From an uncultured Alphaproteobacteria bacterium (GTDB lineage: Bacteria; Pseudomonadota; Alphaproteobacteria; CAAGCB01; CAG-977), in NCBI GenBank assembly GCA_944390195.1, contig CALXOZ010000004.1, positions 1 to 64,000 on the forward strand: DNA of 64,000 bases, in the 5' to 3' direction. The translations under genes and the position numbers were made by a program. Shown in pieces: positions 3,748 through 58,668 of this stretch. The notes below the pieces were generated by a model. It had not been told where the DNA came from and searched no databases. It saw only the letters and a program-made list of their open reading frames with translations. Each line of letters opens with the position of its first letter. Position 1 is the first letter of the stretch.

Positions 3748-5628
3748 ATGGCTACAGATAAAATTGCTCTTACATCATCAATGCGTTCCAATTTACTGAG
3801 TTTGAAAAACACGCAGATGTTACTGGACAGGACGCAGGAGCGTTTGTCAACGGGTTATAAAGTAAACAGTGCAATGGATAATCCGTCTTCGTATTTTACG
3901 GCTCAATCTTTGAATGCGCGTGCCAATGATTTATCGACATTGCTGGACAGTATAGGACAGGCTATTTCCACACTTGAAGTCGCGGATGAAGGTATTACAA
4001 CTTTGCAAGAGTTTGTGGAACAAGCCAAATCGATCGCTGCCAATGCGCGGGATTCGGAAAATATTGCTTCGTCCGTCGTATCTGAAAACGTTGTTTTCAA
4101 TCCGGCGACGGCAAAAGACGACATCTTGACAGACATTGTCGCTAATTCCAAATCAGGCGATCAGTTTACGATCCGTTTGGGAGACGCAACAACCATGCAA
4201 GGGACATCTAATGTTTCAATCGATCAGACATTGGAGGAAATCGGAATAGCTCAAGGGGGCGTTATCGAAATGATCATCGGTGATAAAACGTATGAATTTA
4301 CGTTTGAATCATCGGGATCGGGCATATCTTCGCCGGATTCAAGTTCCGCAGCGGTCAAGCAATCTTTTGGGGTGGATACGTCTTTGGAAGATTTTATGAG
4401 CAATGTCGTTTATACAATCGGGCGTAATGTTTTAAATGCTGAAATCAAAGATGGTAAAATGACTTTTAACACTTTGGACAATTCGTCTTTGCTTATTCGC
4501 TCGACGGCAGGCTTTGTTTCAAACCAACCCGAAGTGCATCCGGAAGCCCGCAAAATCACAGCGGTTCAGATTAGCGCTGCGCAAGGGTCGTCAAACACGG
4601 GATCGGCAAAGTTGACGATTGACGGTGTTGAACTTGATTTGGGATACGATACCTCGGCTGTAACCGATGTTGATGATGTTATCAATCTGGTCAACGCGAA
4701 TGCCGAATTGGCGGCTAAAGGGATCAAAGCTGTGAAAGACGGTTCCGATATTCAGATTTATAACGAAAAGGCCGGAGTATCTGTCGGTGAAATAGAAATT
4801 ACAGGGGCTACAGGCGGTACGGAGGGAACAAGCGTTGACAACGCGACGATAGCCGCTGCTACAGACTATGAATTGCAAGTTCAAACGGACTTTAATCAAA
4901 TATTGGGCTTTGACGCAGGCTATTCCATAACCGTTACAGACGGTATGACCGTTGAACAATTCCGTCAGGCGGTTGACGGTTTAAACGGGGTTTCAGCCGA
5001 TTTTGATTCCAACGGGCATCTTGTTATTTCCGGCGAACAAGGGGACGATATGGTGATTGCCGATGTCGGTTCGGGTAACTTTATAAGCAGTTTACTGGGC
5101 GATCATATTATTGCTGTCAGAAACGGTTCGAATGAACGTGAAAAATACGCCCGTCAGTTTGACGATATATTAAATCAAATTGATCAGTTGGTGAAGGATA
5201 CGTCTTATAAAGGGATCAATTTGCTCAACGGTGATGATTTAACGGTTGTCTTTAATGAATCGCGAACCAGTACATTAGAATTGAAAGGTGTGGTTTTCAA
5301 TTCCGTCGGGTTGGGCTTTACGGTGTCTGAAAACGAATGGAAGGATAATGCCGATATTGATAAGTCGTTAGATCAAATCACCAAGGCGACATCTCTTTTA
5401 CGCGCACAGGCTTCATACTTCAGTCAAAAATTATCGACGGTTCAGATTCGTGAAGACTTTACCGAAAGCATGATTAATAATTTGACAACAGGGGCGGATC
5501 AGTTGGTCTTGGCCGATATGAATGAAGAGGCGGCAAATATGTTGGCACTTCAAACACGTCAACAATTGGGAATTAATTCGTTGTCTTTGGCGTCTCAAGC
5601 TTCTCAAAGCGTTTTACAGTTGTTTTAA
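3748..5628 (+). CDS. Flagellin with an enlarged central domain
   Basis: A 626-residue flagellar filament subunit, well above the 270-500 residues usual in alphaproteobacteria. The conserved N-terminal D0/D1 helices (1 to about 130, beginning MATDKIALTSSMRSNLLSLK) and C-terminal D1/D0 (about 545-626, ending SQASQSVLQLF) are intact. Between them are about 400 residues rich in Thr, Ser, Gly and Asp with flagellin-insert-like modules (for example SAKLTIDGVELDLGYDTS and YSITVTDGMTVEQFRQAVDG). No cysteine was seen. The start is fixed by AGAGGAG about 8 bases before 3748; in-frame codons further upstream do not look like flagellin. A strong terminator follows, so it is transcribed alone. No flaF or flbT neighbour is present. 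Confidence 0.95.
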   Translation: MATDKIALTSSMRSNLLSLKNTQMLLDRTQERLSTGYKVNSAMDNPSSYFTAQSLNARANDLSTLLDSIGQAISTLEVADEGITTLQEFVEQAKSIAANARDSENIASSVVSENVVFNPATAKDDILTDIVANSKSGDQFTIRLGDATTMQGTSNVSIDQTLEEIGIAQGGVIEMIIGDKTYEFTFESSGSGISSPDSSSAAVKQSFGVDTSLEDFMSNVVYTIGRNVLNAEIKDGKMTFNTLDNSSLLIRSTAGFVSNQPEVHPEARKITAVQISAAQGSSNTGSAKLTIDGVELDLGYDTSAVTDVDDVINLVNANAELAAKGIKAVKDGSDIQIYNEKAGVSVGEIEITGATGGTEGTSVDNATIAAATDYELQVQTDFNQILGFDAGYSITVTDGMTVEQFRQAVDGLNGVSADFDSNGHLVISGEQGDDMVIADVGSGNFISSLLGDHIIAVRNGSNEREKYARQFDDILNQIDQLVKDTSYKGINLLNGDDLTVVFNESRTSTLELKGVVFNSVGLGFTVSENEWKDNADIDKSLDQITKATSLLRAQASYFSQKLSTVQIREDFTESMINNLTTGADQLVLADMNEEAANMLALQTRQQLGINSLSLASQASQSVLQLF

Positions 5629-36860: not shown

Positions 36861-36870
36861 CACCTTGTTA

Positions 36871-36895
36871 AAGCCCCGCAAACGCGGGGCTTTTG
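36871..36895 (+). terminator. Rho-independent terminator after ileS
   Basis: Stem AAGCCCCGC (36871-36879) / GCGGGGCTT (36884-36892) with loop AAAC and following T residues. Confidence 0.85.
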
Positions 36896-38300
36896 TTTGT
36901 TTGAAAAAAATTTCATTTTCAGTAAGTTTATAAGATACGAAAAATTCTTTGCTGTGAATTTAAAATGCAGGCATAAGAAGTTTTGACTCTAATGAGTTTG
37001 AATAACTCGTGTGACGGGGTGTGCATCTCTTGACGTATTTTTATAAGAAACATTACCTTTCCAAGTAATTGTATTAATTTATAAAATCCGGATTTTGATG
37101 TAATGCAAAACCAATTCTATGGGATTGGAGCTGTCTGTCGGTTTATAAACGTGACGCATTATCAAAAGATGGCTTTTATATAAGTAAAAATGCGATACTG
37201 GAAGATGATGATTGAAAAACATTGTGAATTGCTGAGATGAAGGAGGAGGGAGATTAAAACGGCCTGTTTTAAAAGGCGGTGTTTACAGAAAAATGAAAAC
37301 GGGATATTTATTGAAATAGGGAACGGTCTTTTAAAGATTTTTCAAGCTGTGTGTCAAATTGTGAAAACCGGTGAACTTGTGAAAGCGCTTTATTCGCAAA
37401 AAATTTGAAACGCTCGAGCCTGACTGGAAGTCTTATTCCTCAAACTGCCATAATTTACGATCTTATATTCAAAGTGAACTTCCTTATTTCAGACGGAGAT
37501 TTTTTTGAGTTTTTTATTCGTATGATAAATCCATGTCTCCGGATTTATTTTTTTATTTCTATGATCTTTATTTCTCTTTCTTTTTCTTCAATACGCCGAT
37601 CATATTCCCCATGCTTGTAAAAGTTACTAAAAAACTGGAATTTGTCATGTGATTTTCGATTGAAATTTATTTGTGTCTTTATTTTTTTAGGAATAAAAAT
37701 AAGTATATTTTCCATTTTCACTTTATTACATACCGATAAATAAACGAGTAAATCTGAACCAAACGTAAAAGGTATGGTATTTTCGCGAATTTAAATCGTG
37801 CAACACTGCCACGGTAAAGGATTGATTTGTTTCGTTCCCAATTCAATACATTTTTTATGAGATGGGTAATATGAAAAAAATCTTTTTTTATTTTCAAATA
37901 ATGTTTAGTTGAAATCCCCACTCCGGTCGCACAGTTGCGGAATCGGTATTCCGAAACTTTATGATAAAGCGGACTGATTTTTAAGTGCTGGCGGATAAAG
38001 TTGTTACGGATTGAACATATATAATTCTTTAAAGCTTTTGTTATTGATAAAAGCTTTCCGATGCCATATCGGCATATTTTCATGACAAAAGCTTTAAAGG
38101 GCGTGAAAATGAAAAAAGATATTAATTGCGGGTATGGCAAGGCGTTAGCATTAATAAAAAAGTGATTTTGGTAACTTGCTGTTTGATATGGATTTCAGTA
38201 AACTGAAATATATGGATAAGGAAAGAAATACAAAGACATACATGAAACGAGGCTGTTAAAATTCAGCCTCGGATGCGTGAAATGAAGAGAGGCGGTAATA
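36896..38300. other. 1.4-kb stretch without a convincing gene
   Basis: A minus-strand frame at 37718-38140 (up to 140 codons from a TTG) lacks a ribosome site, is very basic and aromatic, and matches nothing recognised; it may be chance or a decayed gene. The stretch includes a 15-bp inverted repeat (38027-38099) and an 8-bp hairpin (38248-38271) in the leader of the DUF2726 gene. No tRNA was seen. Confidence 0.4.
38027..38099. repeat. 15-bp perfect inverted repeat with inner hairpin
   Basis: CTTTAAAGCTTTTGT (38027-38041) and its exact complement (38085-38099) flank 43 bases. These contain a second small stem (CCGAT/ATCGG around 38058-38071). The stretch could fold as a branched RNA or be the ends of a small mobile remnant. 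Confidence 0.5.
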
Positions 38301-38819
38301 ATGGATACAACATTAACGGCATTGGTTAAAAAACTCCTTTGGGGAGATGGATTGTATTTAATCGGTTCAATTATAACATTGTTATTGATCGGTTATGTTG
38401 TTTTGTGCTTTGTTGCATGGGTTTCCGATAAACAGCGCGATATTATCAGCAGATACTACCGACCTAAAAAGATTCTGAATAAAACTGAAGAACACTTTTT
38501 TAATTTGTTATGTCAGGCTGTACCTGTCGGTTGCAGTGTTTTTCCCCATGTTTCCATGCGGGCTTTGATAGAAACCAATCATTGGGATATGTGGGCTCCG
38601 TTTAATCTTAAGCGTGTGGATTTCGTTATTTGCAATCCGTCATTGGATATCGTGTGTGTTGTCGAGTTGGAAGGTGAAAACGAGCAAAAACGACATTTGC
38701 GGCGTGAAAAAATGTTGCAAAATGCTGGTGTCAATATTTTGCGTTACCATTTAAACCAAGAACCTACAGTTGATCAGATCAGACAGGATATTAAATCTTT
38801 AGACAGCCCTAGTCTTTAG
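38301..38819 (+). CDS. Membrane-anchored DUF2726 protein
   Basis: A 172-residue protein. One membrane helix (about 18-41) precedes a DUF2726 domain (about 55-165) whose pattern resembles restriction-nuclease-like folds: LNKTEEHFFNLL, KRVDFVIC and VVELEGEN correspond to the E...D...ExE/K arrangement, followed by REKMLQNAGVNILRY. Nuclease activity is not shown for the family. GAGAGGCGG lies before the ATG, and a GAGGCTG/CAGCCTC hairpin lies in the leader. Its last 11 bases overlap the 3' end of the convergent J-domain gene. Confidence 0.8.
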   Translation: MDTTLTALVKKLLWGDGLYLIGSIITLLLIGYVVLCFVAWVSDKQRDIISRYYRPKKILNKTEEHFFNLLCQAVPVGCSVFPHVSMRALIETNHWDMWAPFNLKRVDFVICNPSLDIVCVVELEGENEQKRHLRREKMLQNAGVNILRYHLNQEPTVDQIRQDIKSLDSPSL

Positions 38820-39861
38820 GCGGCAAAATTTTTGAATTGTAAGGCATGGGGGCTTTCCCAAGCCCCTTTTGCAGATCTTCCATTTTCACGAAAATAATTG
38901 TTCCGTGAGGCGTCATTGCTTGTATCCAGTCTGTTTTCGGGACATAACCTGTAATCCGCAAAGTCGTTTGTTGAGGCAGCAAAGCGATAATACCACTATT
39001 TATGTCAGGAGCCTGATAGGCTGAAGTTTGTTCTTTTATCGTATGATACAATTGATTTTCGTTGAGAAGGTCGAATTTTACAGGAATGACATTTTGATGT
39101 TCATAATCATGTATTTCTTGAGGTTTAAAAAGAAGAATTTCGTGTAAATACGGCGTGGTCAGCATGACAAAACCGATAATCATACATAGAAATAAAGGCA
39201 GGTAGACCCGAAAAAAGTCAGTCCAACGGATTTTCCAAAAATCCGGTTCTTGTTTACGCGGAGCTTCGGGAAGAGCATTTAAAAAAACGTTTATTTTGAC
39301 GCGTTGAGGCTGTTCTTTTGCAAATTGTCTCGCCTGTTCCGCCAAAGAACGGGCAAGGTCTATTCGTTTTTCACGTCGGAAAGCGGCTGCATTTTGCATT
39401 AAAATGTCATAGTTGCGATCCGGTGGCATATTTTTGAAAGAATAATTGTTCTTTAAAGCGAACCAGCTTTTGACCGGCGCTTTGAAAAAACTCTTCCAAA
39501 TTTTTACAGCTGATTTGAATTGCTGTTTTGAAGCGCAATTTCGGCAAAAAACGCCTCCATGAACAACACCGCCTTCTTCAAAAAGAATGTAACGCGGTTG
39601 ACGGGCGTGCTTGCCACAACTACAACATGGAATGAAATCCGCCGACGCTTGTGGAATATTGTCATAGGCTTTTCGTGCATCGGGATCTGTCAATACCTGA
39701 TACGCCTCGTTTATTTTCAAGTAGATTTCCCGCGCTTTAGGATCCGGATTCTTGTCGGGATGATACAACTTGACTTCACGGCGAAAAGCGTTTTTGATTT
39801 CTTTTTCGTCCGCCGTTTCACAAACATGTAATATGGCATAATACCCTTTTTTATCGCTCAA
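38809..39861 (-). CDS. Membrane J-domain protein with TTG start
   Basis: A 350-residue Hsp70 co-chaperone-like protein. The J-domain (about 5-66) has the HPD motif in LYHPDKNPDP. A cysteine cluster (CCSCGKH...FCRNC, about 78-110) looks like a zinc knuckle. Then come a helical repeat-like region, one membrane helix (about 225-245) and a C-terminal SH3-like stretch (about 290-335). The start is TTG at 39861: AAGGAG sits 7 bases before it, no ATG fits, and the J-domain begins at once. It starts 16 bases after the preceding unknown gene, so it lies at the end of the flagellar operon. It may chaperone membrane or flagellar assembly (inference). Confidence 0.85.
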   Translation of the reverse strand: MSDKKGYYAILHVCETADEKEIKNAFRREVKLYHPDKNPDPKAREIYLKINEAYQVLTDPDARKAYDNIPQASADFIPCCSCGKHARQPRYILFEEGGVVHGGVFCRNCASKQQFKSAVKIWKSFFKAPVKSWFALKNNYSFKNMPPDRNYDILMQNAAAFRREKRIDLARSLAEQARQFAKEQPQRVKINVFLNALPEAPRKQEPDFWKIRWTDFFRVYLPLFLCMIIGFVMLTTPYLHEILLFKPQEIHDYEHQNVIPVKFDLLNENQLYHTIKEQTSAYQAPDINSGIIALLPQQTTLRITGYVPKTDWIQAMTPHGTIIFVKMEDLQKGLGKAPMPYNSKILPPKD

Positions 39862-39877
39862 ACAATTACTCCTTGTT

Positions 39878-41254
39878 TTAAATGACCTCTTTTAGCGGTG
39901 CCGAAAAAAGAAAGGCGCTTATTCGTTTGATTTTTCCGGTAAGATTTAACACACAAAGAGTCCACAGGGACAGTGTTTGACAGATGTGTCGGAAAAAAAA
40001 GGAAAATACGTTTTTATGATGCAACTTCAGATCAAAGCGATGTTTGTTGCGATATGAAACGCCTTTCAACTGAATTTTTCTCGATTTTGTTAGAACAGAG
40101 TCGAAAGAAAAACGGATACAAGCAAGGAAATCGTTTTGCCAGTTGTGTTTATTGCTTTGGTTGTTTATGCGGCGCACATATAATGAAACGGATTGTATGA
40201 ACTTATCGTAACAAAGGGGGATTTTTCGTTTTTTCCATAGACCTTTTTCTTGTCCTTTCGTTTCCGGAAAAAAGAGGGATTTTTTTTCAAACACTTTTGA
40301 AATAATCTTTTCTTTTTCTGTTTTCCATAGTCTTTTGACAAATGAGGTAGGCATAAAAGAAGAAAATGAAAGATTGTTTTTTCGTGTTGTCATATAAAAT
40401 GAAATTAAAACGGAAATATTATTTTTGATATGAGAGCATGTATCCTTTAAAGCGTTTTTATCATAAAAGGACAATCTGTTTGACAAAGAGGAGATTGATC
40501 GGACAGGAAGGTGTTTTTTTAAAGAAAATTCTGGAACGGCTGAGATTTGCTTATTAATAATGGTCTTAACTGTAACCGGAGGTGTATGAAGGAAAGCGAA
40601 AACCGGAGTGATTTTAAAAAGTTTTTTTTCCATTAAAACGACAAATAAACCTTTTCCGTTTGTAAAAAAGTTCTCCGGAAAAGGGGCTGTTATCATATGT
40701 TGTTTTAATGTGTTTGATAAAATGCGGGCGATATTGCCAGAAGAGGGAAAAGAAACTGGAACGGATTGCAAGTGCTTGTTAAATATGCGTCTGATCGGGA
40801 GGCTTTTCGCATTGATCGGCAAGTGTTCAGGATCAATATATTGCTTTTTTACGTTTTTGATTTCATAGATCGGTTCGGAACTTTTTGTTGTCGATTTTAG
40901 TGTTGATGTGATATTGCCTCGATTTGAGGTTTGACCGTCAAAAACGGGTGAAACGGAAAAAAAGTGTTCAAAAACCGGATCGTTTTTAAATCCAGAGGAA
41001 ATGATCTTAATTTTTATATGTTGTCTTTTTTTTTCAATGGGGAGAGTTTTTAAAATTAAAGAAATTTTTTTTCTGCGATGCGATATGCACGCCAATTCTG
41101 ATTTTTTAAAAGATGAAGCATACAATGAAATAATGGTGGGCAATACAGTTTCAGGTAAGCATTTTAATTCCAGCAGAATTTTTGTTATTGGAAATAAAAT
41201 GCTTCCCGTTAAATTAATATGGTATGCCTTCCAGATTAAAAGGATACTGCCCAT
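39878..41254 (-). CDS. Unknown basic protein inside the flagellar operon
   Basis: A 458-residue protein with no recognised family. It is strongly basic, rich in Lys, Ser, Phe and Ile, and low in acidic residues. A hydrophobic N-terminal stretch (MGSILLIWKAYHINLTGSIL) may be a membrane or export segment. LP[IV]R motifs recur (KSLPIRRIF, KHLPVRSIS). The frame is open for 1.4 kb, starts 7 bases after the flhG stop with AAAGGTG ideally placed, and is followed 16 bases later by the J-domain gene, so it is translated as part of the operon. An in-frame TTG precedes the ATG. Rapid divergence or recent origin is possible. Confidence 0.7.
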   Translation of the reverse strand: MGSILLIWKAYHINLTGSILFPITKILLELKCLPETVLPTIISLYASSFKKSELACISHRRKKISLILKTLPIEKKRQHIKIKIISSGFKNDPVFEHFFSVSPVFDGQTSNRGNITSTLKSTTKSSEPIYEIKNVKKQYIDPEHLPINAKSLPIRRIFNKHLQSVPVSFPSSGNIARILSNTLKQHMITAPFPENFFTNGKGLFVVLMEKKLFKITPVFAFLHTPPVTVKTIINKQISAVPEFSLKKHLPVRSISSLSNRLSFYDKNALKDTCSHIKNNISVLISFYMTTRKNNLSFSSFMPTSFVKRLWKTEKEKIISKVFEKKSLFFPETKGQEKGLWKKRKIPLCYDKFIQSVSLYVRRINNQSNKHNWQNDFLACIRFSFDSVLTKSRKIQLKGVSYRNKHRFDLKLHHKNVFSFFFRHICQTLSLWTLCVLNLTGKIKRISAFLFSAPLKEVI

Positions 41255-41263
41255 CAAACACCT

Positions 41264-42082
41264 TTATTGTTTGTTCAGTCTTGCGGCTATGGACAAGACG
41301 TCTTCGGCGGCTTCCGTATTGGGATGACGCTGCAAGATCGGGGTTTGATTCCTTATGGCGTCCCGAACTCTTGTATCGCGCCGTACGATGCCGGCGAGAA
41401 CCGGAGAAATATGTAAAAAGCCTTGGCATGCTTTTAATAAAGTGGAATAGGTTCTTTCTCCTTCACGATAAGAATTCGCCGAATTGACAACAATGCTGAT
41501 ATTTGGTTTTTGTTGTTCCAGACAAACCATTTTTATAAAGGCGTAAGCGTCTGTTAATGAAGTCGGTTCGTCTGTGCAGACAATGATCAAAGCGGCCGCG
41601 TTGGAGGCGAATAAGCGAACCGGTTTTTCCACGCCGGCACCAAGGTCGACGATAACACGGTCATAGCCGCCGGCTAACAAGCGTAAATCATCATTGATCA
41701 GTTGTAAGCGGCTGATCGGAACATTTGTCAGACTGCCTGACCCAGACCGTCCGGCAATAATATCGAAATTGCCTTCGGTATAATGACAGATGGCTTGGTT
41801 TAAGGTGATTTTTCCTGCGATAACGCTGCCTAAATCATAATTAGGCATCAATCCCAATTGAATATCTATATTCGCCAATCCCAGATCACCGTCGAATAAA
41901 AGCGTTTTTTGTCCGCTGCGTGCCAAAGCATGCGCAAGTGTAATAGAAAACCATGTCTTTCCGACTCCCCCTTTACCCGAGGCGACGGCAATCATGTTGC
42001 GCACTTGTGCACGGGGGATGATTTTTCTGGGAGCCAGAGCCAACATCTGTTCGGAATTGTTTTGTGTCGTTGAGGTGTTCAT
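41264..42082 (-). CDS. flhG: MinD-like ATPase FlhG (flagellar number control)
   Basis: A 272-residue deviant-Walker ParA/MinD ATPase. SGKGGVGKTWF is the P-loop (the usual Thr/Ser/Asn after GKT is Trp), DGDLGLANIDIQLGL is switch I, and VDLGAG corresponds to the DxGAG switch II of FlhG. It limits the number and site of flagella by regulating FlhF. The start at 42082 overlaps the flhF stop by four bases (ATGA), so codons open upstream are not used. It is followed closely by the unknown 458-residue gene. Confidence 0.92.
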   Translation of the reverse strand: MNTSTTQNNSEQMLALAPRKIIPRAQVRNMIAVASGKGGVGKTWFSITLAHALARSGQKTLLFDGDLGLANIDIQLGLMPNYDLGSVIAGKITLNQAICHYTEGNFDIIAGRSGSGSLTNVPISRLQLINDDLRLLAGGYDRVIVDLGAGVEKPVRLFASNAAALIIVCTDEPTSLTDAYAFIKMVCLEQQKPNISIVVNSANSYREGERTYSTLLKACQGFLHISPVLAGIVRRDTRVRDAIRNQTPILQRHPNTEAAEDVLSIAARLNKQ

Positions 42083-43062
42083 GATTTTTCCTTTGTTACA
42101 GAATCGGATTCTTCCGATGACATTAAAAGCAGACGAGCCAAAGAAACCGCATTGATGGCAGATAATCCGCGCGTAATATTTTGACTCATGCTGGCTTCGC
42201 ATAAAGTAAGATGACCGGCATGGGCTGCGGCTAAGACACCGCCGAAACGCCGAGCCGCATCCAAACGGGTGGCCAAAAGGTAAATGACTCCCGCTTCAGC
42301 AAATGCTTCCGCCGTTTCCATAGATTCTTGAGGATCAACGCCGGCGGGCATGACTAAAACGGGCAAAGCGTCCGCCGCTTCGATATAAGCCGTCAAATAA
42401 TCCATATCGCTTTGTTGGAACGGATTGAAGGCGGGCATATCGATGAAGATCAAATCGCATGTTTTTTTCAGCGCTTGAATGTGAGAATGCAAATTTTGCG
42501 GCGAGCGCGCTTTAAGTAAGGTAATGTCTAAAATGTTTGTAAAAGCGACGAGCTGTTCTGTTGCGCCGGCACGCACGGTGTCTGCCGAAATCAAGCCGAC
42601 TTTGCGTCCGGACAAACAAGCGCGTGTCGCCAGCTTTCCGGTGATTACGGTTTTGCCTGCACCGGCGGCGCCGGTTAACATGAATGCCTGTCCTTTTATT
42701 TGTTCCGGCAAGGGATGAAAGTCGAATACCGTATCCAAAGCCGAAGCGAAAGCCACCAGATTGTTTTTCTTTTTGGCTTCTTTTACATATAAAAGGATTT
42801 TTTCAATTAAAGCGGAAGGCAAGGCGTGATAGGTTAACGTTTCGCGCACGGCTTTTTGGAATTCCGTTTCATAAGGCGTTTCATTATAGAACAGGTTGAA
42901 TTCCTCTTCTAATGCCGTTTCTTCGATCGCGGCGGTCAGACGTACGCCGTTGCCGGATCCCAAACGCTGTGTCGATACGATCAAAGCGTTTTCTCCCAGC
43001 TCATGGCGCAATAAATCCATGGCTTCAGACATTGTCGGGGCGGTGTAGGTTTTTATCTTCAT
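42079..43062 (-). CDS. flhF: SRP-like GTPase FlhF
   Basis: A 327-residue SRP-type GTPase that marks the site of flagellar assembly at the pole. The N-terminal basic region is short, the helical N domain spans about 65-120, and the G domain starts at about 123 with G1 GAAGAGKT (131-138), G2 SADTVRAGATEQL (159-171) and G4-like TRLD. The G3 element, normally DTAG, reads DMPAFNP (208-214), so the catalytic Gly is missing. GTP hydrolysis may be weak or altered (inference). AGGAAC precedes the ATG; it overlaps flhG. Confidence 0.9.
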   Translation of the reverse strand: MKIKTYTAPTMSEAMDLLRHELGENALIVSTQRLGSGNGVRLTAAIEETALEEEFNLFYNETPYETEFQKAVRETLTYHALPSALIEKILLYVKEAKKKNNLVAFASALDTVFDFHPLPEQIKGQAFMLTGAAGAGKTVITGKLATRACLSGRKVGLISADTVRAGATEQLVAFTNILDITLLKARSPQNLHSHIQALKKTCDLIFIDMPAFNPFQQSDMDYLTAYIEAADALPVLVMPAGVDPQESMETAEAFAEAGVIYLLATRLDAARRFGGVLAAAHAGHLTLCEASMSQNITRGLSAINAVSLARLLLMSSEESDSVTKEKS

Positions 43063-43072
43063 TTATATGTTC

Positions 43073-45193
43073 CTAAACTTGTCCCAGTGTCCTTATTCGT
43101 GCACGTGGGTGAATCTCATTTTGAGATATTACCACAGTTGTCGGGCGAAATCGTTCAATAATTGAGCGTACATAAGGGCGGATCCCCGGGCTTGTCAGCA
43201 ATACAGGCGATTCTCCGCGGGCGGCTTGGTCTTCAAAGACTTGACGTACGCGCAAAATGAATTTTTGAATCCGGCTCGGAGGCATGGAAAGCTGTTTTTC
43301 TTCCCCTTGTCCCGATAAAGACTCGATAAAGTTTTGTTCCCATTCTCCGGACAAGGTAACCAACGCGATAATTCCGTCCGGTCCGGCGACGGCATTCGAT
43401 ATTTGACGGGATAACCGCGAACGGACGTGTTCCGTAATCAATAACAGACTCTGAGTTGCGGAACAGGCTTCTGAAATACCTTCCAGAATTGTCGGCAGGT
43501 CTCTGATGGACACGCGTTCCGCCAACAAACTTTGTAAAACACGTTGAACACCACCAATTGTAATGCGTTTGGGAATCAACTCTTCCACTAACTTTTGCTG
43601 GTCTTTGTCCAGTTCTTTTAAAAGTTTCTGAGTCTCTGTATAACTCAGCAATTCAGGCATATTGGCTTTAACCAATTCTGTAATGTGCGTCGTGATGACG
43701 GTCGGGCAATCGACAACGGTGTATCCGCGGAACATGGCGTCTTCACGCAAAGTCATGTCGATCCACATGGCGGCCAAACCGAACGTGGGTTCTGTTGTTT
43801 TTTCACCTTGCAAAGTAATTTCTTCTCCGCGAGGATCCATAACGAGCAATTTGTTTGCTCTTAATTCTCCGCGTCCCGCTTCTGTTTCCTTGATATAAAT
43901 GACATAAGTGTCGGGAGGCAGACGCATATTGTCTTGAATGCGCACGGACGGCATGACAAAGCCCATTTCCATGGCCAAAGCGCGCCGAAGAGCTTTGATT
44001 TGATCGGTTAAGCGCCGGTTGGAAGTGTTATTGATCAAAGAAAGCAGGCTGTAACCGAGTTCCAATCGAACCAAGTCCATTTTCAAAACATTTGCGATCG
44101 GTTCTTCGGCAATCGGAGGCGGAGCTTGCAATTGCTGTTCTTTTTGACGTTCGTTTTCTTCTTGTATTTGCCGGTGTTGGCGAATGAGAAAGTAAGCGGT
44201 TATGCCGGAAATAAAACTTAAAAACATGAAAGGGGCGGCGGGTGTCCCCGGTAAAGTCGCCAACATGAAGGATAAAAAAGACGTCATACCGAGGGCTTTC
44301 GGATAATGGGAAAGTTGACCGAACAGGACTTTTTCCGTTCCCCCTGAAATGCCGGCTTTTGATACCATGATACCGGCGGCGACAGAGATAATCAAAGCCG
44401 GTATTTGAGAAACCAAACCGTCTCCGACCGTTAAGCGCATATAAGTGTTAGCGGCTTTCATCACAGGCATATCTTGTTGTAAAACACCGATTAAAATGCC
44501 GGCAACAATATTGATTGCCGTAATGACCAAGCCGGCGATGGCGTCTCCACGCACGAATTTCGAGGCACCGTCCATCGCGCCGTAAAAGCTTGATTCTTGA
44601 GACAATTCATCACGGCGTCTTCGTGCTTCGGGTTCGTCGATTAAACCGGAGGACAAATCCGCATCGATTGCCATCTGTTTTCCGGGCATGGCGTCCAAAG
44701 CGAAACGGGCGGCGACTTCGGCAATACGACCGGATCCTTTTGTGATGACCATGAAATTAACCAAAACCAAAATGGCAAATACAATGACTCCGATAATGAA
44801 ATTGCCGCTCATGATAAAGCCGCCAAAAGCCGCAATGACATGTCCGGCGGCTTGAGGCCCTCGATAACCGTCGGATAATATAAGCCGTGTCGACGACAGG
44901 TTCAATGCCAGACGGAATAAGGTCGTAATCAGTAAAACCAATGGAAAAGAAGTGAATTGAATCGGTTTTTCTATGAAAATGGAGGTCATTAAGACCAGTA
45001 CGGAAAACGTCAGCGATATTGCCAAAGCGATATCCAGCAACCACGGAGCCAATGGCAGGATTAAAATGACCAGCATCAAAATGATCCCTAGAGCCAAAGC
45101 GATATCAGAACGTTTCCCTAAAGAAAACAGTCCTTGTTTTAGTTCGTCCGGAAAAAGGGACGGAGCTTTTGCTTTGACGGGATCTTTTACCAT
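43073..45193 (-). CDS. flhA: Flagellar export gate protein FlhA
   Basis: A 706-residue inner-membrane component of the flagellar type III export gate. About eight membrane helices lie in the first 340 residues. Conserved cytoplasmic loop motifs include DAMPGKQMAIDADLSSGLIDEPEARRRR (split here: DAMPGKQMAIDADL, then SSGLIDEPEA). The C-terminal domain (about 360-706) docks FliH-FliI and chaperones and ends near VISQNEIHP. Length is standard. AAGGCG precedes the ATG. It lies between flbD and flhF with 10-base gaps on each side. Confidence 0.97.
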   Translation of the reverse strand: MVKDPVKAKAPSLFPDELKQGLFSLGKRSDIALALGIILMLVILILPLAPWLLDIALAISLTFSVLVLMTSIFIEKPIQFTSFPLVLLITTLFRLALNLSSTRLILSDGYRGPQAAGHVIAAFGGFIMSGNFIIGVIVFAILVLVNFMVITKGSGRIAEVAARFALDAMPGKQMAIDADLSSGLIDEPEARRRRDELSQESSFYGAMDGASKFVRGDAIAGLVITAINIVAGILIGVLQQDMPVMKAANTYMRLTVGDGLVSQIPALIISVAAGIMVSKAGISGGTEKVLFGQLSHYPKALGMTSFLSFMLATLPGTPAAPFMFLSFISGITAYFLIRQHRQIQEENERQKEQQLQAPPPIAEEPIANVLKMDLVRLELGYSLLSLINNTSNRRLTDQIKALRRALAMEMGFVMPSVRIQDNMRLPPDTYVIYIKETEAGRGELRANKLLVMDPRGEEITLQGEKTTEPTFGLAAMWIDMTLREDAMFRGYTVVDCPTVITTHITELVKANMPELLSYTETQKLLKELDKDQQKLVEELIPKRITIGGVQRVLQSLLAERVSIRDLPTILEGISEACSATQSLLLITEHVRSRLSRQISNAVAGPDGIIALVTLSGEWEQNFIESLSGQGEEKQLSMPPSRIQKFILRVRQVFEDQAARGESPVLLTSPGIRPYVRSIIERFRPTTVVISQNEIHPRARIRTLGQV

Positions 45194-52892: not shown

Positions 52893-55800
52893 TTATCGTT
52901 TGATTGTCAATAACTCTTCAAGCATGGCATCGGCTGTCGTTATGATTTTCGATGCCGCAGAATAGGCGCGTTGCGTCGTGATCATATCGGTGAATTCTTC
53001 AGCGATATCGGCGGTTGATTGTTCCAATGTGCTACTGGATACCGTACCGGCTCCTCCTTCTCCGGCTGTGTGCAAAGAGGCGCTGCCGGAAGAGGTTGTC
53101 GCAATATAGGCGTTTCCGCTCAAAGCTTCCAATGAATTCGGGTCGACAAAAGTCGCAATGGGAATTTGGGCGATTGCCCGTGTTTCCCCGTTGTCGAACA
53201 GAGCTGTGACAATGCCGTCTTCACTGATCGAAACGCCGGTATAGTTGCCGTATTTTGCTCCGTCCTGATTGACATAATTCGTTGCGAATTTGCCGGACAA
53301 TTGCGTTAAACCGTTGGCTGTGTTGGCATCTCCGAGAGACAGGCTGATCTGGGAACTTTCATAATAATTGCCGGTCATATCGCTTGCGCCGTTCGCCCAT
53401 TCGATAGCGATCTTGTTCGTATTTATTTCTTTCGGCGTTCCGTCGGCATTGAAACTGACGCAAGGGATAAGGGATCCGTTTTGTGCCTTGTCTATGTTGT
53501 TAAACGAAAAAGTATTGGTTAAAACGATCAAACCGTCCGTATCGGGCTGACCCGTCTGTTGACCGTTGTCTTTTCCGGTAACATTCAAAGCGTTTCCGAT
53601 GCCGTCTGTCTCTGTGAAAGCCATTCTGTCTTCTTGTGTCGTGTCCGTTGTCAAAGTGGAATTCCCGACATTGTTGGCTGTTATGGCGTTTGTTTCATAA
53701 GCCGTTAAAACAAGACTGGCACCCGTTTGATATTCTTCGACGCCGGCAAGGACGGACAAAGCGTTCATCAGTGTTGCCGGATCTACCGTTTCCGTTATTT
53801 GCGCGTTGGTACTGTTTTCAGACATCACGTTGCCGCTTAGCGTAATGCTTGCGCCGGTTCTGCTGTCTTCGACACCGGCAAGGACGGCAAGGGCTTGCAT
53901 GGCGTCTTGCGGTGTGGTCAACGCCGGTGTGTCTATGCTGATTTCATTTGTTCCGGCTGTGCCGGTTACAAAGGTATAAGTCGTAGCGTTGATTGTTACG
54001 GTGTCTCCATTGTCAGGGACGTCCGTAAACGTTAGTGTCTGAGTGTTGATCAACCCGTTTAAATCAATTGTTGTCGAATTTGATACGCCGCGTTCAAAGG
54101 TGTAAGTAACGCCATCAATAGTGACACTTTTAGAAATATAGTCGTTAATGTCGGTGCTGTTGAATGTAAGTGTGTCCTGATTGAGTTCCGCTTGAGATGT
54201 TGTCGCTTGCAGGTAAGCGTCGCTTGAAATCAAAGTGGCTCCGCTGACTTGGAAGTAATTGCTAAGATCTTCAATGCCGGCGGTGTTTTTATAATAAGCG
54301 CACATCGTATTATAAAGGGCGTTCATAATTCCTACAGCGGCGGCAGAGGTTCTATCCTTTTCATAAAGATCGGCTATGTTGACGGCAATGGATCCGTCGT
54401 CCAACACCGTACCGGAGGCAATACCGGGGTTGTCAGTGAATTTATAAGTTTTTGATGTCCCCGAGGCAATATTCCCCAATGTTACGGTTTGTCCGACATA
54501 AGCGGCGACATTTGTGCTTTGGAAGGTTACGGAAGCCGAATTTCCAGAAGATACCAAAATGTTCGATCCTGTCGAAGTCGGATTGATTTCCAGTGTTGAT
54601 CCGGAAGCAATGTAACGTTCGCAATCGGGTTCATTGTCATTGATGGCTTGTTTTAATAAAGAAACGAGTTTAACCGTATCTATTTTTCCGGTTCCGCGGT
54701 CGATTAAATCACTGATATTTACGCTGACCACCCCGTTGAAAGGCGAAGCTTCCATATCGGTGAACAAATAAGAGTTTGTCCCGATTGTAATGGTTTTCCC
54801 CAGATAATCGTTTAAATTGTTGCTTGTAAAATCGATTCGGGCGGTATTTTTTATATCCCAGTCGATTTCCGGCAGTTCAAATTCTCCAGAGGAAAGACCC
54901 GTAACAGGATCCGGATTGGCGGATGATTGCAAACAAGCCGTTGTCGCGACTTTGAATTTGACGGACGCTCCGCTATTCGATTGCCGGATATCCAAAGTTG
55001 TACCGTTTGAAGATATGCTGAAACGGGAAGCTCCCGGAAGAGAACTTTGAATGGCGTTGTTGAATTTTTCAACGGCATCTGCAACAGTAACTACGCCGGA
55101 TCTCAGATCCACGGGAATGACGACTTCGTTATTTGACGGAGAATATGTCGTTGTGCCATCAGTCGTAAATTCAAAGACATAGTTCTTTGCGTTTATTTCC
55201 ATGGAAACAGTGGAATGGTTTGAAGGGATTGAGGTGAACTCCAGCTGGGCTCGTGCCGAATAAACGTCTTGAGACGCGTCGTTGGTTGTTTCCGCGGAGC
55301 TGTAAGTGATTAATGTTGCAGATCCGGAAGGCATTCCGATATCCAAAGACCATTTGGCATTATCCGTCTTTGTAAAGGTCAATTGAGCGTTATGAGCATT
55401 GCCTAAAGAATCGTAAATAAGAACGGATGAGCTTTCTCTTCCTCCGGCTTCGGGGTTTGCCGGATCAAAAACAGGAGCGTCCGCCGGCAGATTGGCTCCG
55501 AAAGAAACGTTTTTTGTTTCTTGCGCCGTTCCTCCGATGGCGTTTAGGTTGATAGCCTGCATATTTGTTGAATCAATGATGTTATCATTGATATAAACGG
55601 TGTTGCCGGTGCTGTCCGTATAAGCTTTCATGAACATGTTATCGCCGATTTGAACCAATGAAGCGTTTTCTTCACCGTCGAAAGCCATTAAAGGCCAAGC
55701 TTGCAAATAATAACCGTTATCGTTTTTTAAATATCCGTTTTGATCGACACTGAACGTTCCCACGCGCGTATAACTCCATAAATCGCCTTGAGACGGTTGA

Positions 55801-56093
55801 GCGGTTTGTGTCGTTACAAAAAAACCGGATCCGGATATTCCCAAATCTGTTGAATAGCTTGTTGAACTTAACAAGCCTTGGACATCCATTCCCGATCGGG
55901 TTCGACATTGAACCGCTCCGCTTGAATATCCGCTTGCAGCGCTCTGTTTGGTAACCAAAGTTGAAAAACTTGCCGAATTGGCTTTGTATCCGATGGTGTT
56001 GATGTTTGCAATGTTATCTGAAATGATACTCATTGCCGATGATTGTGCGTTTAATCCCGAAACGCCTGTTTTCAATGCTCCCAATAAGCTCAT
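52893..56093 (-). CDS. flgE: Flagellar hook protein FlgE, greatly enlarged and repetitive
   Basis: A 1066-residue hook subunit, against about 400 in enterobacteria and about 590 in Caulobacter. The N-terminus (MSLLGALKTGVSGLNAQSSA, SDNIANINTIGYK) and C-terminus (DMITTQRAYSAASKIITTAD) are classical rod/hook D0 helices. The middle has repeated beta modules of the form (L/V/I)xFxSTxxxxYxGxxxTIxxxxYxF at about 419-446, 521-554 and 641-668, with weaker copies near 284-310 and 686-711. A second duplicated unit (ALAVLAGVEDSRTGAS / ALSVLAGVEEYQTGAS) is at about 734 and 778. GGAGAAC precedes the ATG. It is the last gene of the operon. Confidence 0.94.
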   Translation of the reverse strand: MSLLGALKTGVSGLNAQSSAMSIISDNIANINTIGYKANSASFSTLVTKQSAASGYSSGAVQCRTRSGMDVQGLLSSTSYSTDLGISGSGFFVTTQTAQPSQGDLWSYTRVGTFSVDQNGYLKNDNGYYLQAWPLMAFDGEENASLVQIGDNMFMKAYTDSTGNTVYINDNIIDSTNMQAINLNAIGGTAQETKNVSFGANLPADAPVFDPANPEAGGRESSSVLIYDSLGNAHNAQLTFTKTDNAKWSLDIGMPSGSATLITYSSAETTNDASQDVYSARAQLEFTSIPSNHSTVSMEINAKNYVFEFTTDGTTTYSPSNNEVVIPVDLRSGVVTVADAVEKFNNAIQSSLPGASRFSISSNGTTLDIRQSNSGASVKFKVATTACLQSSANPDPVTGLSSGEFELPEIDWDIKNTARIDFTSNNLNDYLGKTITIGTNSYLFTDMEASPFNGVVSVNISDLIDRGTGKIDTVKLVSLLKQAINDNEPDCERYIASGSTLEINPTSTGSNILVSSGNSASVTFQSTNVAAYVGQTVTLGNIASGTSKTYKFTDNPGIASGTVLDDGSIAVNIADLYEKDRTSAAAVGIMNALYNTMCAYYKNTAGIEDLSNYFQVSGATLISSDAYLQATTSQAELNQDTLTFNSTDINDYISKSVTIDGVTYTFERGVSNSTTIDLNGLINTQTLTFTDVPDNGDTVTINATTYTFVTGTAGTNEISIDTPALTTPQDAMQALAVLAGVEDSRTGASITLSGNVMSENSTNAQITETVDPATLMNALSVLAGVEEYQTGASLVLTAYETNAITANNVGNSTLTTDTTQEDRMAFTETDGIGNALNVTGKDNGQQTGQPDTDGLIVLTNTFSFNNIDKAQNGSLIPCVSFNADGTPKEINTNKIAIEWANGASDMTGNYYESSQISLSLGDANTANGLTQLSGKFATNYVNQDGAKYGNYTGVSISEDGIVTALFDNGETRAIAQIPIATFVDPNSLEALSGNAYIATTSSGSASLHTAGEGGAGTVSSSTLEQSTADIAEEFTDMITTQRAYSAASKIITTADAMLEELLTIKR

Positions 56094-56928: not shown

Positions 56929-58668
56929 TTATACTTTTATATTAAGCCTGTGAGGGGAACGGAATTTTGAAAGAATGTCGGCGGAGTTTAAATCCGTCTC
57001 TTCGAAGTTCGATTCCAAAGAGGATGCCGATATCCGCTGATCCTGATTTTCGTCTTGTCTGTCCTTGTAATTGAGACTGAAAGACGATTCATTCATGTTA
57101 AAACCGCTATCGGCCAAAGATTGTTTCAATGTTTCAATATCCGTGCGTAGTAAATCGAAAGTTTGGTCGCGATTGACGCTTAAAGCGACTTTTATGTCGC
57201 CGTCTTTAGTGATTTCCAAATGAATTTTTATGCTTCCCAGTTCTTTTGTTTTTAAAACGATATCGATTTTATCCGTTCCCAATCGGGCCGCTTTTTTTAT
57301 ATTAATCTTTATTTGTTCGCTTATTTCGTTGAATATTTTGGTTTTTAGAGAAGCAGAATTATCGCAAACGGCTTTTTCTTTTAAAATACTGGAAGAATAA
57401 AGGAGCCCTTCCCCTTGAAAAACGGAGGAGGTGTTTTGCTGTTTGAAAACGGAAGAAAATTCCGTCTTGTCTTGTAATAAAGAAGAAAAGCTTTGTTGTT
57501 CTTTCAGCGCCGTATTGTTCAAAGATGGTTGAATGAACGCTTGCGGTGAATTTTCTTTGTTCGCTGGGTTGACGAATGAAAGAGGTCGTGTTTCCTTTGA
57601 AAACGACGGGTCTTGTTGTAAATGACGACCGTCTGATGGATCGGTGCGGTTTGTGCCGTCATTATTGGCTATGATTTCACTTGCCTTTTGTTCTTTTGTT
57701 TTTTTAGCCTGAAGAGGGCGCGATTGGATCGTAACATCAAGATGGATGTTTGTACCTGCCGGCAATTGGGAAGCTAAGTGCTCGGCTTGTTGTAAAGCGA
57801 AATTTTCCTGATTGCCTGAAAGAGGCTGGTTTTTTCCTTCAATGTTTTTTTGTTCCGTTACCTCAACGGCTTCCGGAAGGAAAAAACTTCCAGCCAAAGG
57901 CTCTGATTGTGATGATAGGGGGAGTGATGGATTGTTATTTCTTTTTATGGACAGGGAAAGGGGATCCATGGAAAAGCCGGAATGATCAAAGGACGAATTT
58001 GCAAGGAAAGTAGGGGATACTTGAACATTTTCTTGAGAAACAGAGGGCGTTTCTTGAGTATGAACGCTGTTATGCGCGCCTGTTTCGTCAGCGTATTGCA
58101 AGGGGATGGAAAATTCAGATGTTATGACCGGTTTAGAATTGTTTATGCCGTATGCAGAATTATCGGGTTTACAAGATGTAACGGCTTTTTCTTCAACGGT
58201 TGTTGCAGATACTGTATCGGACTGTTCAAATGAGGAATTGATCTCTTTTTGCCTGACTGCGTTTTCCTGTGCCGGTTCGTAAGCCAAAGAGTTGCTTTTC
58301 GGTTCGGGAATATTTTTCCTATTTTGAAAAGCATCTTCTTTTTCACTCATTTTTTGCAGTTTTTCACTTGCCCGTGTACGTTTGATATGTAATTTGACGA
58401 CATCAGTCTTTCGAAGAGGCTCTTTTTTGATTTCCGAATTTCTTAGAAGGTTGCTGTTATCAAAATCAGCTTGTATAAAATTGAAAAATACGGCTTTATT
58501 CCTTTCTGTTTTTCCAGCTTCATCTGGTGTGTAATTTTCGTTTTTGTATGATGGTTTTTGTGTCCGTAGAGTGTGAAGATCGTTTTTTTCAACGTTAAAG
58601 GCTTGCTTTTCCGTATCCGAAGCTGTCGGTGTCGTACTGATTAATAAATTGAAAACGGAAAGATCCAT
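56929..58668 (-). CDS. fliK: Flagellar hook-length control protein FliK
   Basis: A 579-residue secreted ruler. The first 450 residues are low-complexity, Ser/Gln/Asn-rich and poorly conserved, as expected. The C-terminal Flg_hook domain (about 465-545) contains KIDIVLKTKELGSIKIHLEI and a typical LRTDIETLKQSLADSGF. The great length fits an enlarged hook subunit. It is the first gene of the operon; a near-consensus sigma-54 promoter lies 38-53 bases upstream, and AAAGGAAA precedes the ATG. Confidence 0.9.
   Translation of the reverse strand: MDLSVFNLLISTTPTASDTEKQAFNVEKNDLHTLRTQKPSYKNENYTPDEAGKTERNKAVFFNFIQADFDNSNLLRNSEIKKEPLRKTDVVKLHIKRTRASEKLQKMSEKEDAFQNRKNIPEPKSNSLAYEPAQENAVRQKEINSSFEQSDTVSATTVEEKAVTSCKPDNSAYGINNSKPVITSEFSIPLQYADETGAHNSVHTQETPSVSQENVQVSPTFLANSSFDHSGFSMDPLSLSIKRNNNPSLPLSSQSEPLAGSFFLPEAVEVTEQKNIEGKNQPLSGNQENFALQQAEHLASQLPAGTNIHLDVTIQSRPLQAKKTKEQKASEIIANNDGTNRTDPSDGRHLQQDPSFSKETRPLSFVNPANKENSPQAFIQPSLNNTALKEQQSFSSLLQDKTEFSSVFKQQNTSSVFQGEGLLYSSSILKEKAVCDNSASLKTKIFNEISEQIKINIKKAARLGTDKIDIVLKTKELGSIKIHLEITKDGDIKVALSVNRDQTFDLLRTDIETLKQSLADSGFNMNESSFSLNYKDRQDENQDQRISASSLESNFEETDLNSADILSKFRSPHRLNIKV

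Follow-up and report, generated by a model that had tools for sequence, protein, structure and literature searches.

A divergent open frame behind flhG in an uncultured alphaproteobacterium is an eroded ortholog of an unnamed flagellar gene family with possibly FliK/SctP-like intact members

The window considered here is a stretch of 64,000 nucleotides from an uncultured alphaproteobacterium, and its minus strand carries a run of flagellar genes in which flhA, flhF and flhG are followed by an open reading frame, here called X, and a J-domain gene (Table 1). X starts with an ATG at 41254, immediately preceded by an in-frame TTG at 41257 that would extend the product to 459 aa, and ends in a TAA at 39880-39878. 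The first-pass annotation, made without database searches, placed X 7 bases from flhG and 16 bases from the J-domain gene; the latter spacing is correct, counted from the X stop to the TTG start at 39861, and the former was measured as 9 bases from the flhG stop to the X ATG. The ribosome site that it described is present as a Shine-Dalgarno-like AAAGG, which is kept in relatives. Further along the window, 52893-56093 encodes an unusually long (1066 aa) FlgE-like protein of the hook type.

Table 1. Coordinates of X, its parts and the associated flagellar genes in the window
Feature	Coordinates	Strand	Remarks
ORF X, divergent ortholog of the flhG-linked flagellar family	39878..41254	minus	458 aa, ATG start
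AAAGG, Shine-Dalgarno-like ribosome site of X	41261..41265	minus	overlaps flhG stop; layout common to relatives
flhG (MinD/ParA-type ATPase)	41264..42085	minus	directly upstream of X
flhF	42079..43062	minus	
flhA (FHIPEP)	43073..45193	minus	
J-domain gene (DnaJ PF00226)	38809..39861	minus	downstream of X; dN/dS about 0.05-0.06 on the window lineage
Separate bona fide fliK	56929..58668	minus	Flg_hook PF02120 at 57058-57300
C-terminal homologous region of X, about residues 281-444	39926..40414	minus	sole part strongly similar to relatives, 24-32% identity
Part of X aligning with the FliK/SctP-like core (RF..D..L...IQL.G......FDL.LH) of intact orthologs	39926..40120	minus	
Ancestral 3' tail of X, now out of frame	39858..39896	minus	...AKRGHLKQGVIV, TGA overlapping J-gene start

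The frame of X is free of stop codons over 459 codons, where 17-22 would be expected and the minimum was 5 among 2000 first- to third-order Markov shuffles, and the other two sense frames across the same interval hold 25 and 24 stops. Under neutral decay at 0.4-0.9 substitutions per site, 15-23 stops would be expected (Poisson P of finding none 2e-7 to 1e-10). The homology of X to its relatives keeps to a single frame from the start as far as about residue 440, the start itself is conserved, and orthologous frames occupy the same place in relatives, all in agreement with the first-pass view of X as a real gene. The composition of X does resemble that of non-coding DNA, as a chance open frame would, but the stop statistics and the in-frame homology to a class-wide family at the same locus rule this reading out with near certainty. 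A hidden mosaic of frames was likewise dismissed, since a frameshift-aware profile alignment detects a single shift, confined to the last ~14 codons. The tail that ends the gene in relatives (...KRGVLV, with a TGA overlapping the J-gene start) survives in the window as LKQGVIV-TGA in another frame, and by this alignment the last residues of the window product have been replaced through frameshift. The old tail sequence has been preserved probably because the ribosome site of the J-domain gene lies within it. In the genus, the conserved C-terminal motif KRGV[LW][VA] (39858-39881 in the window) is itself probably a by-product of that overlapping site.

Judged by sequence and position, X is the ortholog of an unnamed alphaproteobacterial family of about 550-660 aa. 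A search among 60 relatives recovered a homolog from each of the other 11 genomes of its genus and family; the close relatives of the window are metagenome-assembled genomes from rumen, horse faeces and similar sources. The congeneric proteins measure ~555-660 aa and stand in the order flhA-flhF-flhG-X-J-domain gene, barring contig ends or rearrangement, as the first-pass annotation had proposed to check. The window copy matches the family C-domain profile (A5, window excluded) at an E-value of 2e-21. With a C-domain profile built without the window sequence, a survey of 289 evenly drawn alphaproteobacterial genomes found the family as a single copy in 100 genomes and 79 of 224 sampled genera, a spread incompatible with the lineage-specific role first proposed. 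Co-occurrence counts from this survey are lower bounds, several assemblies being incomplete. At this reading, flhA is present in 92 of the 100 carriers, and X lies 1.1-6.3 kb downstream of flhA on the same strand in 75 of 76 same-contig cases and directly downstream of flhG on the same strand in all 78 genomes with both on one contig; the flagellar role suggested for the gene is thus well supported. The linkage to flhG is not absolute, because two members outside the class sample carry X elsewhere, one (G009; L023, 6361-8379) after a T2SSE-type ATPase and a TrbI-like gene, and the other (G010; L021, 6817-8802) after a short ORF adjoining a sulfate permease. Among the named carriers are Telmatospirillum, Magnetospirillum moscoviense (C-domain at L081, 4265-4651) and many Rhodospirillales, as well as Azospirillum lipoferum 4B, whose WP_014188891.1, annotated as a 'hypothetical protein', is preceded by flhA and by genes for a GTPase (FlhF) and a MinD/ParA protein, the same flhA-flhF-flhG-X order as in the window. 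In Azospirillum brasilense Sp7 the ortholog occupies 4238-6316 of L138, about 1283884-1285962 of record NZ_CP012915.1. In many other Rhodospirillales, X is followed not by the J-domain gene but by a protein of ~117-134 aa (L092 4744-5139, L096 4715-5116, L137 6307-6660), an uncharacterised member of the flhG cluster with sub-threshold, QueF-like Pfam similarity. In one congener (G006:C13; L025), X is split by a one-base frameshift at about 4550-4580, just before the conserved KQNAVRFVLDL core; the genus may thus have lost the gene a second time, or the break may come from faulty assembly. Neither the window copy nor the intact members have a match in Pfam, NCBIfam or PHROGs, in accordance with the first-pass failure to recognise a family, and a description of the family was not found in the literature searched.

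Against this background the peculiarity lies in the window copy and not in the gene. The copies of relatives in the genus are acidic and 40-56% identical to each other over their full length, whereas the window copy reaches only 24%, or 28-32% in the C-terminal ~190 residues, and the genes flanking it are 79-92% identical to those of the nearest congeners. About 200 linker residues have been lost, and at 458 aa and 5% Pro the window protein falls outside the length and proline-rich linker of intact members (550-660 aa, 10-17% Pro). The strongly basic character reported at first is correct (pI 10.3, net charge +50, as compared with -7 to -17 in intact congeners), but the recurring LP[IV]R is found only twice, at residues 152 and 249 counted from the ATG, and is unsupported as a motif. 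Most of what is unusual in the amino-acid content can be traced to base composition (A.34, T.31, C.21, G.13), and the intergenic stretch nearby at 36870-38290, read on the same strand, has an equal composition. GC1/GC2/GC3 of the window copy are 0.35/0.34/0.34, whereas all other copies, even two AT-rich ones, have GC1 well above GC2, and its codon-usage score is the lowest of the ORFs longer than 200 aa examined on the contig. As two membrane-protein ORFs also have low GC1-GC2, equality of the two was set aside as sole proof of decay and used only together with codon models. The odd composition, first taken as the mark of a special protein, is instead the erosion of this single copy through relaxed constraint and strand mutation bias. 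The intergenic stretch used for comparison is 1.4 kb of AT-rich non-coding DNA between ileS and a DUF2726 gene; congeners G003, G005 and G006 have a ~400-aa aminotransferase-like gene at the equivalent place, and a remnant of that gene, sought in the window as a pseudogene control, was not found.

Branches are long throughout the window lineage: that of flhA is 0.10 as compared with 0.006-0.04 in congeners, every operon gene compared behaves alike, and that of X is 3.4 versus 0.3-0.5. The notion that X is disproportionately accelerated was thus partly wrong, and the long branches reflect an acceleration across the genome or the lineage that is not confined to X. For this reason, selection on the window copy was assessed with codon models scaled to dS. 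In a branch codon model with the neutral length of the window branch set at 0.90 from conserved operon genes, omega on this branch is 0.73 for the C-terminal region of X (0.40 with length free) versus 0.15 (0.154) elsewhere in the tree, and about 1.0 for the rest of X (0.41 with length free) versus 0.24. For the C-terminal region the data reject an omega of 1 (2*delta lnL 9.6-10.6); for the rest, with length fixed, they do not. Coding constraint is therefore weakened but not absent, and the lack of constraint that was named at the outset as grounds for discarding the gene was not observed. As controls, the window-branch omega is 0.25-0.31 versus 0.22 for fliH, 0.05-0.06 versus 0.14 for the J-domain gene and 0.30-0.51 against a background of 0.19 for the FliK C-terminus, while the conserved operon genes give 0.057 versus 0.041. 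The bona fide FliK of this genome is thus relaxed as well, and in the window lineage selection on hook-length control may have weakened altogether. Among 118 columns of X with a clear ancestral state, 45 ancestral residues are retained, with no dependence on column conservation among distant members (P 0.18), and at conserved columns the retained residues fit neutral evolution with stops forbidden (P 0.06-0.5). Zero stops combined with such neutral-like retention indicates that nonsense and frameshift changes are selected against in X and that missense changes are nearly free.

What the window copy still does can be read in several ways. Its product is probably an old protein that keeps weak function, not a new one: X would be translated across its length with most of its sequence constraint gone, and would have drifted to the local mutational equilibrium, A/T-rich and G-poor on its strand, a drift through which an acidic protein would have become basic and rich in Phe, Ile and Ser, with a shorter linker. 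Weak retained function is slightly favoured over a dead gene because omega = 1 is rejected, yet the same rejection is also expected had function been lost part-way along the branch. A functionally dead X, its frame kept open since a stop or frameshift would uncouple translation and by polarity lower expression of the J-domain gene, is accordingly a lesser but serious contender. Selection for openness and not for content would account for a composition indistinguishable from non-coding DNA, for the poor codon usage and for residues that fit neutral decay without stops; moreover, the J-domain gene downstream is strongly constrained, the X stop overlaps its start in relatives, and the single frame break is confined to the very end. 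On the other side, the J-domain gene has a good ribosome site of its own, and the GC1-GC2 pattern is not diagnostic by itself. The strong divergence and high positive charge might also be taken for a new, lineage-specific basic protein under positive selection, such as a nucleic-acid or membrane binder, but this is very improbable, as the strand base composition predicts the charge shift without constraint, omega stays under 1 in the C-terminal region, is about 0.4-1.0 in the rest and nowhere clearly exceeds 1, and orthologs occur class-wide.

For the intact members, a FliK/SctP-like role in export switching is the best single guess. AlphaFold2 was run separately on the C-terminal parts of two members, the intact ortholog closest to the window copy (G002, L068) and the Magnetospirillum protein (mean pLDDT 84 for both), and both models end in a b-b-b-a-b arrangement. 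Among the PDB matches listed by Foldseek for these two independently modelled members, the switch domain of Pseudomonas aeruginosa PscP (5cuk) has the highest probability (0.94 and 0.90), with E-values of 0.18 and 0.19 that are not significant and TM-scores of only 0.35-0.47. The FliK core consists of four strands and two helices, shares the fold of the PscP C-terminal domain and binds FlhB (PMC6972891). In hhalign against a profile of 26 FliK sequences, RFVLDLNLSRLGRLQLDG falls in register with the FliK core IxIxLxPxELGRVxVxLE at a non-significant P of 0.029 and a probability of 1.7%, such that the conserved RF.LDL.LSRLGRLQLDG of the X family lies on I.I.L.P.ELGRV.V.L, with RLGRL at the place of ELGRV; hhalign against six FliKs of the genus gave no signal. 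The X family resembles FliK, the flagellar protein that controls hook length and switches export, in its flagellar operon, its long proline-rich, low-complexity N-terminal part and its small, modelled C-terminal b-b-b-a-b domain, but differs in that this domain comes after an extra helical segment and has a leading b-hairpin with a conserved W..IP motif in place of the first helix. Unlike SctP, PscP and YscP, the needle-length and switch proteins of injectisomes, X is encoded at a flagellar locus and has no injectisome context, and a search of the family for sequence homology to solved structures returned nothing credible. Membership in FliK is not claimed, because the PF02120 Flg_hook HMM matches neither the window copy nor any intact member tested and a true FliK is encoded in the same genome, which also rules out X as the fliK of this genome; nearly all X-carrying genomes have a separate FliK. 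On balance, then, X appears to be the relaxed copy of a flagellar protein whose intact members may act in a FliK/SctP-like manner at the export gate. Such members would combine a proline-rich, poorly conserved N-terminal and linker part with a C-terminal domain that may dock on the cytoplasmic export gate (FlhB/FlhA) and there help to time an assembly step alongside ordinary FliK.

The position of the gene lends itself to a different interpretation, in which the X family is a partner of FlhF and FlhG that sets flagellar number or position and has no link to hook or export switching. In gammaproteobacteria such a part is played by FipA, a DUF2802 protein and FlhF partner, whose gene lies just downstream of the flhA-flhF-flhG operon (PMC11620751), a position like that of X. 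The invariable adjacency to flhG in the same-contig genomes of the survey points the same way, as does the co-occurrence of the two genes, flhG being found in 79 of 92 X-positive versus 43 of 74 X-negative flagellated genomes (P 8e-5). Against it, 13 flagellated X-positive genomes have no flhG match (some of these assemblies are incomplete), DUF2802 matches neither the window copy nor the intact members tested, X has no transmembrane segment, N-terminal or other (maximum 19-residue hydropathy 1.1-1.6), and is 3-4 times longer than FipA, and both the proline-rich layout and the modelled fold of the C-terminal domain point towards FliK/SctP. A role purely as an FlhF/FlhG partner is for these reasons rather doubtful. 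Returning to the FliK/SctP-like interpretation, its boldest extension would give about half of the flagellated Alphaproteobacteria a second, so far unrecognised switch protein of this type, encoded after flhG and linking switching at the export gate with the FlhF/FlhG system for flagellar number and placement, with one rumen/gut lineage losing it while its frame is forced open; this is a speculative proposal, more apt to be wrong than right.

The gene, which follows flhG in roughly one of every two flagellated Alphaproteobacteria, Azospirillum and Magnetospirillum included, appears without a family name in the three family collections searched. If its product is a second export-switch protein, the timing of hook and filament assembly in the carriers would depart from the Salmonella scheme, and if it is a partner of FlhF and FlhG, it would correspond in Alphaproteobacteria to FipA. 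A clean case of a gene whose content has eroded to near-neutral composition with its frame intact is offered by the window copy, which makes the retention of a frame through polarity testable.
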